A DNA stretch of 56,815 nucleotides from Dehalococcoidia bacterium (GTDB taxonomy: Bacteria; Chloroflexota; Dehalococcoidia; Lucifugimonadales; GCA-2717565), in the NCBI GenBank assembly GCA_009692865.1, contig SHYH01000003.1, positions 1 through 56,815 of the forward strand. Direction: 5' to 3'. The notes under the pieces are model-generated. The model ran no database searches. It had not been told where the DNA came from and was given only the letters and a program-made list of their open reading frames with translations. Positions 16,832 through 36,276 of this stretch are shown here, piece after piece. The position numbers and the translations under genes were made by a program. Every line of letters begins with the position of its first letter. Positions within the stretch are counted from its first letter, which is position 1.

Positions 16832-17095
16832 ATGCGGACTCACCTAATCATATCGGAGGAGCTGCTCAGGCAGATAGATGCCACGGTAGGCAAGCGAAGG
16901 CGAAGCCGGTTTGTTGAGGAGGCGGTGCGGGAAAAGTTGAGAAGGGAGATGTTGGTCGCCGCGCTCTCCTCAACGGCGGGGCTTCTCTCCGCTGAAGCCC
17001 ACCCCGAGTGGGGCACCCCAGACGAGGTGGCAACTTGGGTGAGGGAGTCCCGGCGCCGGGACGAGCAGCGCTTGGGGAGTCCTACCCGTGGCTAA
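16832..17095 (+). CDS. vapB: VapB-like antitoxin
   Basis: RHH-like N-terminus MRTHLIISEELLRQIDATVGKRRRSRFVEEAVREKLRRE; overlaps a PIN-domain gene. Confidence 0.7.
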   Translation: MRTHLIISEELLRQIDATVGKRRRSRFVEEAVREKLRREMLVAALSSTAGLLSAEAHPEWGTPDEVATWVRESRRRDEQRLGSPTRG

Positions 17096-17474
17096 GTACG
17101 TCCTTGACACTACGGTGCTGATAGACCACTTGCAAGGCCGGAATGCGGTGGTGGAGCTCTTGGCTTCCCTGGCTGGTGAGGGTCACGAACTGGGGGTGTG
17201 TGATATCAACATTGCTGAGCTCTATGCAGGGTTGAGGCAGGACGAGCAGGCCCAAGCAGATCGTCTCATCGATAGCCTGAGCTACTTCGTGGTCACCTAC
17301 GAGCGTGCCAAGCAAGCAGGAGCCTATCGTTACAGCTACAATCGCCAGGGAACCCTTCTCACCATCGCTGATACGCTGGTTGCGGCCACGGCGGTGGGCG
17401 AGGGAGCCACGCTCATCACAGCCAACCGCAAAGACTTCCCTATGCCAGAGATCATACTCCTCCAGTCCCCATAG
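17088..17474 (+). CDS. vapC: VapC-like PIN-domain toxin
   Basis: MAKYVLDTTVLIDHLQG, CDINIAELYAGL, IADTLVAATAVGEGATLITANRKDF. Confidence 0.9.
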   Translation: MAKYVLDTTVLIDHLQGRNAVVELLASLAGEGHELGVCDINIAELYAGLRQDEQAQADRLIDSLSYFVVTYERAKQAGAYRYSYNRQGTLLTIADTLVAATAVGEGATLITANRKDFPMPEIILLQSP

Positions 17475-17645
17475 CCTGCAGGGAGGCACTGAGGTCAGAT
17501 GCCTTCCCGCTTTCTCACCTGGCCCCAAGTCAAAGGTTATGGCCCCCGAAACGTCGGCTCGCGCTTCTCGACAGACTCGGTAGCTAGGACTGGTCACTCG
17601 GTGTACAATAGGGACGTCCTAGCTACATCTCAGGGGAGGCGCCCG

Positions 17646-18371
17646 ATGCCCATTATTTCAGCCAAGGACCAGGAGTTCCTGCGCCAGCATCTGAGCCGCG
17701 AGCTCAAGAAGAAGACCAAGCTGACCCTCTTCACCCAAAAGGCCGGCGGCCTCACGATCCCGGGGAGGGAGTGCCGCTTCTGCGGAGAGACCCAGCAGCT
17801 CCTGGAAGAGTTGACGTCCCTATCGGACAAGCTGGAACTGGACGTTCGTGACTTCTACGCCGAGGCCGATGCCGCCAGAGAGTTGGGCGTGGACCGGGTT
17901 CCCACCATCCTCATGGGGAAGGATGGGCAACAGAACCTGCGGTTCATGGGCATCCCCAGGGGCAACGAGTTTCCCACCATACTCGAGGACCTGGTGTCGC
18001 TGTCCCAGGACACCAACCCCCTTCCTCCTCCGATTCGACGGCGTGTGGCCAGGATCCAGAAGGACATCCGCATTCAGGTGTTCGTGACGCCCACTTGACC
18101 CCACTGCCCTCGGATCGCCCGTGCGGCGCACGCAATGGCTATGGAGAACCCGAGAATCACCGCCGAGATCATCGAGGCCCAGGAGTTCCCCGACTTGGCC
18201 CGCCTCTATAACGTGATGGCGGTGCCCAAGACGGTGATCAACGGCACCGTCCAGTTCGTCGGCGCGGTGCCCGAGAAGACGCTGCTGAGGCGGGTGCTGG
18301 AGGCCATCGGGGAGGAGCTAGCAGGCGAGGATGAAAAGGAGGAGGGGGTAGGAGGCACCACGACCCTCTAG
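17646..18371 (+). CDS. Two-domain thioredoxin/glutaredoxin-fold oxidoreductase, candidate selenoprotein with in-frame TGA at 18096-18098
   Basis: ORF 17646-18098 and ORF 18135-18371 share frame with open codons between: CRFC ... QVFVTPT-(TGA)-PHCPRIARAAHAMAMENPRITAEIIEAQEFPDLARLYNVMAVPKTVING. Confidence 0.8.
18117..18139 (+). promoter_or_regulatory. Candidate bacterial SECIS hairpin
   Basis: GCC-CGTGC-GGC-GCACG-CAAT-GGC: 5-bp upper stem, 3-nt GGC loop beginning 26 nt after the TGA. Confidence 0.5.
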
Positions 18372-18403
18372 GTCTGTAGACAAACGAGCAGGTGTGTCAA
18401 CTT

Positions 18404-18431
18404 GTAGGGGCGATTCATGAATCGCCCCTAC
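18404..18431. repeat. 28-bp perfect palindrome, REP-like
   Basis: GTAGGGGCGATTCATGAATCGCCCCTAC equals its own reverse complement. Confidence 0.9.
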
Positions 18432-18448
18432 TCCTTTCGACGGTGAAC

Positions 18449-19801
18449 ATGACGAAGATCTGGTTGCTTCGGTGGATTGCTCTGCTGGCACTGGCCTTGC
18501 TAGGGCCGCTCCTCGGAGGTGTCGAGTCTTCGCATGCCCAGGGCCAGGGTATCACCGTCACCACTCTTGAGGCGGTCAGCGAGTTCCCCAAGGGCATTCG
18601 ATTCCGCCTGGAGGTGGAGAGCCTCAGCCCTATCACCGAGGCGGCGTTGCGGTTCACGGTGAGTGACCAGCCCGTGCAACGCTCCTATCCCCTGGACATT
18701 GCGTCTCCAATTGCCAGGCTTCAGACCGAGGTCCTGGTGCGAACGGACACCTACGAGCGGTACATCCCTCCCGGGACCGACATTCACTACTTCTTGGAGG
18801 TCAAGGCCCAAGGTGGACAGGCCCTGACCACGGAGCCTCGTCAGTTCACCTACCTGGACGCTCGCTTCGAGTGGAAGGAGGAGCGGGAGGGCAAGGTGTC
18901 AGTCCTCTCCTACGGCCCTGGGAGCTCCCAGGCCGGCACTGTCCTGCGTACCGTGACGGCCACCCTCCAGGATATAGGGGCCTTGCTGGGGGTCACCCTG
19001 AATCGTCCTCTTCGCCTCGTGATGTACAACAGCGTATCCGACATGCTGGGCGCCCTTCCCCTGGCCAGCGAGGCCCTGACGCAGCAGTTGATCACGGAGG
19101 GCCAGGCCCATACCGCCGCGGGGGTCATCCTCCTGCTGGCCTCGGTCGGCAACGTGGTGGGCGTTGCCTCCCATGAGGTCACCCACGTCCTCATGTACGA
19201 CGCCGCCAACAACTCGTTCCACGCAATTCCCACCTGGCTGGACGAGGGGATGGCGGAGTACGGGAACAGGGAACCCGCATCGTCCGGCGATTACGACCGT
19301 GCGCTGGCGTCGGCGATCGCTCAGAACCGCCTGATCCCCTTCCGCCAACTGGCGGGTCGGCCAGGTCGGGCAGAGGACATCATCCTCCTCTATGGCCAAG
19401 GGAAGAGCTTTGTGGACTTCCTTGTCGAGACCTATAGGGCCGAGGCGTTGCGCAAGATGCTCGCCCTGTTCAAGGCAGGCGCGTCCCTGGACTCGGCCCT
19501 GCAGCAGGCCTACGGCGCGAGCCTGGACGAACTGGAGAACCGGTGGCGGCGCTCCCTGGGAGCCTCTCTCATTGCCGTGTCCCAGCCTGTCGTGCGGCCT
19601 TCGCCTGCTCCCATCCCGACCTTGCCTCCCCTCACGCTGGGCCTCTCCGCCCCTACACCCAAGGCAACGCCTCCAGGAAGCGCCGTCCAGGGAGGTGGCT
19701 TCACGTGTAGAAGGGCGCCAGGGGCCCGAGGAGTCCTGGACCTGTCCCTGGTGTTGCTGGGGATTGGGCTTGCCGGGCGGGCCGTGAGAGGCCGTCGGTA
19801 G
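18449..19801 (+). CDS. Secreted peptidase MA-like zinc metallopeptidase
   Basis: N-terminal signal-like TM, ASHEVTHVLMYD (HExxH), TWLDEGMAEYG; start moved from 18392 because MCQLVGAIHESPLL is encoded by the palindrome. Confidence 0.85.
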   Translation: MTKIWLLRWIALLALALLGPLLGGVESSHAQGQGITVTTLEAVSEFPKGIRFRLEVESLSPITEAALRFTVSDQPVQRSYPLDIASPIARLQTEVLVRTDTYERYIPPGTDIHYFLEVKAQGGQALTTEPRQFTYLDARFEWKEEREGKVSVLSYGPGSSQAGTVLRTVTATLQDIGALLGVTLNRPLRLVMYNSVSDMLGALPLASEALTQQLITEGQAHTAAGVILLLASVGNVVGVASHEVTHVLMYDAANNSFHAIPTWLDEGMAEYGNREPASSGDYDRALASAIAQNRLIPFRQLAGRPGRAEDIILLYGQGKSFVDFLVETYRAEALRKMLALFKAGASLDSALQQAYGASLDELENRWRRSLGASLIAVSQPVVRPSPAPIPTLPPLTLGLSAPTPKATPPGSAVQGGGFTCRRAPGARGVLDLSLVLLGIGLAGRAVRGRR

Positions 19802-34425: not shown

Positions 34426-36276
34426 CTAGACAGAGACCTTTTCCTTCTGGAACGCCTCCAGAAGGTCTCCCTCCTTGAAGTCGGTGAACCCGTCGACGAC
34501 GACTCCGCACTCAAAGCCGGCGGCCATCTCCCGCACGTCGTTCTTAAGGTGTTTCAAGCTGCTGACGTGCCCCTCGTGGAGGCTTTTCCCACCCCGCATC
34601 ACCCGTATCCAAGAGCTGCGGGCGAGCTTGCCATCGCGCACCAGGACTCCTGCCACTTTGCCCGTTTTTCCGACGGAGAAGATGACCCGCACCTCGGCAT
34701 GGCCCTCGATGACCTCCTTCTCCTCGGGCACCAGGAGCCCCGCCAGGGCCTTCTGAACGTCCTCTACCAGGCGGTAGATGATGTCGTAGTAGCGGATGTC
34801 CACGCCGGAGGTCTCGGCCAGGCGTCGGGCGCCGGGCTCGGGCTTGCTGTAGAAACCCAGGATGATGGCCTTGGAGGCGATGGCCAGCAGAACATCGCTC
34901 TCGGTGATGCTGCCGCTGGCGACGTGGATGATGTGGACCCGCGTGCGGGGCGAGGCCAGGTGCTCCAGGGCCTCTCGGACAGCATCGATGCTGCCCTGGA
35001 AGTCGGTCTTAACAACCAGGTTGAGCTCCTTCATCTCCCCTGCCTGGATCCTGGTGTAGACCTCCTCCAGGGAGACGGCCCTGGTTCGAGCCTGGGCTTG
35101 CTGCTGCTCCCTTTGAGACGCTAGCTCCTTGGCTGCTCTATCGTCTGCCACCACCTCCAGGGTATCCCCCGCCTCCGGGAGCAGGTCCAAGCCCAGGAGC
35201 TCCACAGGAATGGAAGGGCCCGCCTGCTTCACCCGCTGGCCCATGTCGTTGAAGAGGGCCCTGACCCTGCCCGAGGCCCGGCCCACCACCACCGTGTCTC
35301 CTATCTTTATGGTCCCGTTCTGGATCAGCGCTGTGGCCACGGGGCCCCGGTTCTTGTCCAGCCGTGCCTCGATGACCACACCACGGGCAGACCGATTGGG
35401 GTTGGCCTTGAGCTCGGCTACCTCGGCCACCACCAGGATGTTCTCCAAAAGCTCGTCAATGCCCAATCGTTGCTTCGCGGACACCTCCACGGCGATGACG
35501 TCTCCTCCCCACTCCTCTACGATGAGGTCATGCTCCGAGAGCTGCCGCTTCACCCGCTCGGGGTCGGCGCCGGGGAGATCCACCTTATTGATGGCTACGA
35601 TGATGGGCACCTTGGCAGCCTTGGCGTGGTTGAGGGCCTCTACCGTCTGGGGCATGACCCCGTCGTCTGCCGCCGTCACCAGCACCGCGATGTCCGTTAC
35701 CTGGGCGCCGCGGGCTCGCATGGCCGTGAAGGCCTCATGGCCAGGGGTGTCCAGGAAGGTGATCTTCTGTCCTTTGTACTCCACCTGGTAGGCGCCGATC
35801 CTCTGAGTGATGCCGCCCACCTCACTAGCCGCCACATTGGTCTGGCGAATGGCATCGAGGAGGGTGGTCTTGCCGTGGTCTACGTGCCCGAGGATGGTGA
35901 CCACAGGGGGCCTCAGCTCCAGGAGAGAGGTGTCCTCTTGGGGTTGCCCTGGGGCAGCCGGCCCGGTGGTTGGCCTGCGCTCCGCACGTCGGACGGGGTG
36001 GAGGCCGAAGTCCGCCACCACCGTGGCCGCGATGTCGTAGGCGACCAACTGGTTGATGTTGGCCATGACCCCGTTGCGCATGAGCTGCTTGATTATCTCA
36101 ACGGGGGTCATTCCCAGCAGCGAGGCTAACCGATGGACCGGCAGGGCCTCGGGCAGCTCTACCCTTCTCGGCCCTCTTGGCTTGGGAGGAGCCCGCAAAG
36201 GCCTACCCGTATCTGGGGTCCCGGCAAGGGCGGCAGCTTGTCCTGGAGAGTCGCTTTGCATCATATCGTTGATCAC
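34426..36276 (-). CDS. infB: Translation initiation factor IF-2
   Basis: [71 protein letters not shown]. Confidence 0.98.

Follow-up and report, generated by a model that had tools for sequence, protein, structure and literature searches.

The window, a stretch of 56,815 nucleotides from a contig of a Dehalococcoidia bacterium, carries on its forward strand a frame that runs from ATG at 17646 to TAG at 18369–18371 and is open apart from one in-frame TGA at 18096–18098. The mechanical ORFs at this locus span 17499–18098 and 18135–18371, and the initial annotation had taken them as one protein in one frame if the TGA is decoded; its coordinates were found to be correct. When TGA was translated as U, the read-through product was 241 aa long with one U at residue 151, and 90 sense codons were counted after the TGA, where about 90 had been claimed. 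Standard annotation would split such a gene or label it as a pseudogene. The source genome is a 1.41 Mb MAG with 82.7% completeness. The features of the locus are as follows:

17632–17639, forward strand: Shine-Dalgarno-like sequence AGGGGAGG, 6 nt upstream of ATG 17646, read from the sequence
17646–18371, forward strand: predicted selenoprotein gene, ATG to TAG, for a two-fold protein disulfide oxidoreductase (PDO) of 241 aa, from the translation with TGA as U, TIGR02187 and PDO homologues in the PDB
17772–17783, forward strand: first active site C43-R-F-C46 of the N-terminal fold, with C43 and C46 (codons TGC/TGC) nearly invariant in alignment A1
17901–17903, forward strand: P86 at the first-fold cis-Pro position, invariant in alignment A1
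18096–18098, forward strand: TGA, putatively read as selenocysteine (Sec) U151, which opens the second active site U151-P-H-C154; TGA in 26/53 and TGC/TGT in 26/53 relatives
18105–18107, forward strand: C154, the predicted resolving cysteine of UxxC, listed as invariant in alignment A1
18116–18128, forward strand: candidate SECIS hairpin CGCC-CGUGC-GGCG, matching the consensus hairpin of the TGA set, with the loop beginning 22 nt past the UGA
18225–18227, forward strand: P194 at the second-fold cis-Pro position, invariant in alignment A1

The read-through protein matched the NCBIfam profile TIGR02187 (PDO_seleno_TRX) with 239.2 bits against a cutoff of 185, and the match covered positions 2–209 of the 209 in the profile and 215 residues of the protein on both sides of the TGA. 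The sequence also matched the PDO of P. furiosus in full length (1A8L; 2.5e-41), another Pyrococcus PDO (1J08; 6.7e-43) and the Aquifex PDO 2AYT. Because the TIGR02187 and P. furiosus PDO matches extend across the TGA, the read-through frame is far beyond what chance would give. Pfam assigned Thioredoxin_3 to two stretches of the protein. The profile of full-length AhpF (TIGR03140) was also tried and rejected, as it scored 74.8 bits against a cutoff of 502.9 and its match was confined to the N-terminal part. The AlphaFold2 model, for which 30 loci-derived sequences were used as input, had a mean pLDDT of 92.7, and its best PDB matches in Foldseek were the PDOs 1a8l and 1j08 (rmsd 1.6–1.7 Å over about 230 columns), followed by the N-terminal domains of AhpF. 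The predicted model confirmed the two-fold PDO architecture, and the two thioredoxin folds, the C/UxxC active sites and the cis-Pro of TIGR02187 members are all present in the window protein. As the initial annotation had described, the TGA takes the place of the first Cys of the second CxxC (UPHC) while the first fold retains CRFC, and both folds have a cis-Pro position; the cis-Pro role of P86 we take from what is known of the family.

The initial annotation had proposed to search the genome for selA, selB, selC and selD, and all four were present. Profile searches of the genome gave 558 bits for selA, 370 bits for selB and 384 bits for selD, and the tRNA-Sec with anticodon TCA was found by both ARAGORN and Rfam (70.5 bits). 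The second match of the tRNA-Sec model, on contig C3, was a tRNA-Leu. Further selB matches, including one in the window at 35218–35901 on the reverse strand, were weaker and did not reach the selB cutoff; they probably represent other GTPases of translation. For formate dehydrogenase alpha, nothing scored above cutoff and no internal TGA was seen. The selD gene itself (L016, minus strand of contig C74) has one in-frame TGA within MTTATPVRLTTLSHCAGUASK and is a second predicted selenoprotein of this genome. A UxxK motif is listed for Sec-containing selenophosphate synthetase (PMC13188914), and HCAGUASK fits this motif.

The codon at the TGA site was compared among TIGR02187 members from 59 nearest-kin genomes and 246 genomes of the class, together with two members from GTDB contigs. 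TGA was found at 26 of the 53 loci with the window copy counted, TGC/TGT at 26 and TCG at one, so the pairing of TGC with TGA that the initial annotation had wished to see in an alignment is present. The decay with other stops that it had feared in relatives was not seen, as TAA or TAG occurred at this codon in 0/53 loci, and its argument that a change from a Cys codon to TGA needs a transversion is true for TGC as well as TGT. Identity between the window copy and the other TGA copies was 35–49% before the TGA and 42–67% in the 72 residues after it, and the latter part was better conserved in 24 of the 25 comparisons. This makes a decaying read-through tail unlikely because decay would show the reverse. 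On the tree, 12 changes between Sec and non-Sec were needed, 5 of them forced by starred branches, which indicated repeated switching of the codon, the behaviour to be expected when Sec and Cys are exchanged. One might suspect that a Cys-type gene has suffered a nonsense mutation, or that the TGA is a sequencing error, so that the locus is a pseudogene or an assembly artefact: the window gene is known from a single MAG assembly, and Ser in one relative (L044) shows that the site can be lost. Against the recurrence of TGA in copies from 26 genomes, the good conservation beyond it and the complete Sec machinery in the source genome, this explanation is very improbable.

It is slightly less probable still that the UGA acts as a true stop, giving a one-fold protein of 150 aa and perhaps a second protein beginning at ATG 18135. 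This ATG does exist, and partial termination is usual at Sec UGA codons; however, a start at 18135 omits the first strand (141–147) and the active site (U151–C154) of the second fold, which are conserved in relatives, and in half of the relatives this position is a sense codon, for Cys. Genome-wide reassignment of UGA to an ordinary amino acid, or its suppression, has nothing besides the in-frame TGA to suggest it and can practically be dismissed, as four other window genes end with TGA as an ordinary stop, selA and selB have no internal TGA, and the tRNA(UCA) found is of the Sec form.

The presence of selA was also compared across the relatives. It was detected in 27/32 genomes with a TGA copy and in 28/39 with only non-TGA copies, which is not a significant difference (p=0.26), and the five TGA-form MAGs where selA was not detected were 71–85% complete. 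Among genomes with at least 86% completeness, a cut picked after the data were seen, selA was present in 19/19 of the TGA-form and 21/28 of the non-TGA-form genomes (Fisher p=0.03), and this association in the more complete genomes lends weak support to Sec. The PDO with Ser (TCG) at the Sec/Cys position belongs to a genome (G014) that has selA and selB nevertheless, and is possibly a one-site or inactive form. Two other genomes (G004 and G021) contain two TGA-form PDO copies each. The CxxC of the N-terminal fold is lost and the UxxC kept in five TGA-form copies (L059, L060, L065, L070 and L022), whereas all other copies that were examined, the Cys-form ones without exception, retain it. This pattern in the sequences suggests that, with Sec in the second site, the first may no longer be needed.

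The RNA downstream of the TGA was analysed in the window and at the level of the set. The 71 nt around the window TGA showed no excess folding stability compared with shuffles (z=0.29), and the window hairpin did not stand out against synonymous recodings (z=-0.85, p=0.19). At the set level, synonymous-codon shuffles gave a weak signal, and RNAalifold predicted a hairpin in the TGA set at positions 21–24/30–33 counted from the T of TGA (-5.96) and no hairpin in the non-TGA (Cys) set. All four hairpin pairs were formed in 22/26 TGA copies as against 10/27 non-TGA copies, the TGA copies being mutually related so that set-level counts are not independent. The window has a swapped C-G at 18116/18128 where most copies have G-C, a compensatory change with both bases at third codon positions. 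The Arg codon eight codons past the TGA was CGC in 0/23 TGA copies (AGG in 15, CGT in 6 and CGG in 2) as against 13/20 non-TGA copies, a contrast with a Fisher value of 2e-6 when relatedness is ignored, and the independent-pairs test of this codon signature had too few pairs and was underpowered. Bacterial SECIS elements have been described with a G in the loop (PMC1088965). For the TGA set, these patterns give good support, short of proof, for a putative constrained RNA element with a loop G after the UGA.

The Sec reading made by the initial annotation is strongly supported by selA, selB, selC and selD, the TGA/Cys pairing, the conservation after the TGA and the hairpin at the set level. Judged from the sequences, the window gene almost certainly encodes a Sec-containing cytosolic PDO of the family resembling the AhpF N-terminal domain, in which SelB and Sec-tRNA(UCA) would insert selenocysteine at the UGA at 18096–18098, with the short hairpin just downstream presumably helping. 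The frame, homology, machinery, codon pairing and predicted fold are read from sequence, and we infer the insertion of Sec, the direction of the redox reaction, the partner and the substrate. In the C-terminal fold, U151 and C154 would act as a selenol/thiol pair that reduces the disulfides of substrate proteins or exchanges them, and the oxidised enzyme, a selenenylsulfide, would probably be recycled by NADPH-thioredoxin reductase, possibly via C43 and C46 in the N-terminal fold. Archaeal PDOs are known to pass electrons from NADPH-thioredoxin reductase to peroxiredoxins and other disulfides (PMC7278568), and the source genome encodes a thioredoxin reductase (L079; 400 bits, above cutoff). 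By analogy with this archaeal precedent and with this reductase encoded, the most likely role would be thioredoxin reductase-dependent reduction of disulfides, in which Sec is the residue of the C-terminal site that attacks.

Among the window genes adjoining the PDO gene, none names a substrate. The gene downstream (18392–19801, forward strand) encodes a protein that has a Peptidase_MA_2 domain (PF13485) and a hydrophobic, signal-like N-terminus, and a Peptidase_MA_2 gene also lies 3′ of the PDO gene at four other loci (L027, L034, L040 and L042). A functional tie of the Sec-PDO with this adjacent protein in the lineage seems doubtful; if true, an envelope peptidase would have the PDO as its selenium-dependent redox partner. 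Just upstream (16832–17474, forward strand), a small ORF is followed by a PIN-domain protein (PF01850), a VapBC-like toxin–antitoxin pair.

The initial annotation had considered Sec in a PDO-like architecture unusual, which did not hold, as TIGR02187 (PDO_seleno_TRX) is a listed UxxC selenoprotein family and the Sec form is common in the class, with 26 TGA copies and 26 Cys copies among those examined. A survey of 2006 had reported a selenoprotein PDO in Carboxydothermus hydrogenoformans and Symbiobacterium thermophilum (PMC1794560), and four sequences of this selenoprotein family are known from Asgard archaea (PMC11227280); a literature search for PDO selenoproteins in Chloroflexi found nothing relevant. 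The window gene thus adds a member to a selenoprotein family known for about two decades, leaves the list of known families unchanged, and is ordinary rather than surprising. If confirmed, it would give an uncultured lineage of the Chloroflexota type one more selenoprotein, and the several Sec/Cys interchanges are useful for asking why Sec is kept or lost. Since reviews list the PDO family as a predicted selenoprotein and not as one verified by experiment, a biochemical test of the enzyme would be of use.

When compared with known systems, the window protein resembles TIGR02187 members in the full-length match, the two thioredoxin folds, the UxxC and the occurrence of a Sec form with Cys homologues, and it differs in coming from a Dehalococcoidia-like lineage rather than from the Carboxydothermus and Symbiobacterium of the 2006 survey, with no difference seen in architecture. 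The two-fold structure, both active sites and the cis-Pro positions are common to the Cys-type PDOs of P. furiosus (1A8L), P. horikoshii (1J08) and A. aeolicus (2AYT), and the identity with the Pyrococcus enzymes is 37–38% in the Foldseek alignment; the C-terminal site is CPYC in these enzymes, whereas its first Cys is replaced by the predicted Sec in the window protein. The tandem fold is also common to the N-terminal domain of AhpF (1ZYN, 5H29), but in AhpF this domain is fused to a flavin reductase, whereas the window protein is stand-alone and scores below the AhpF cutoff.
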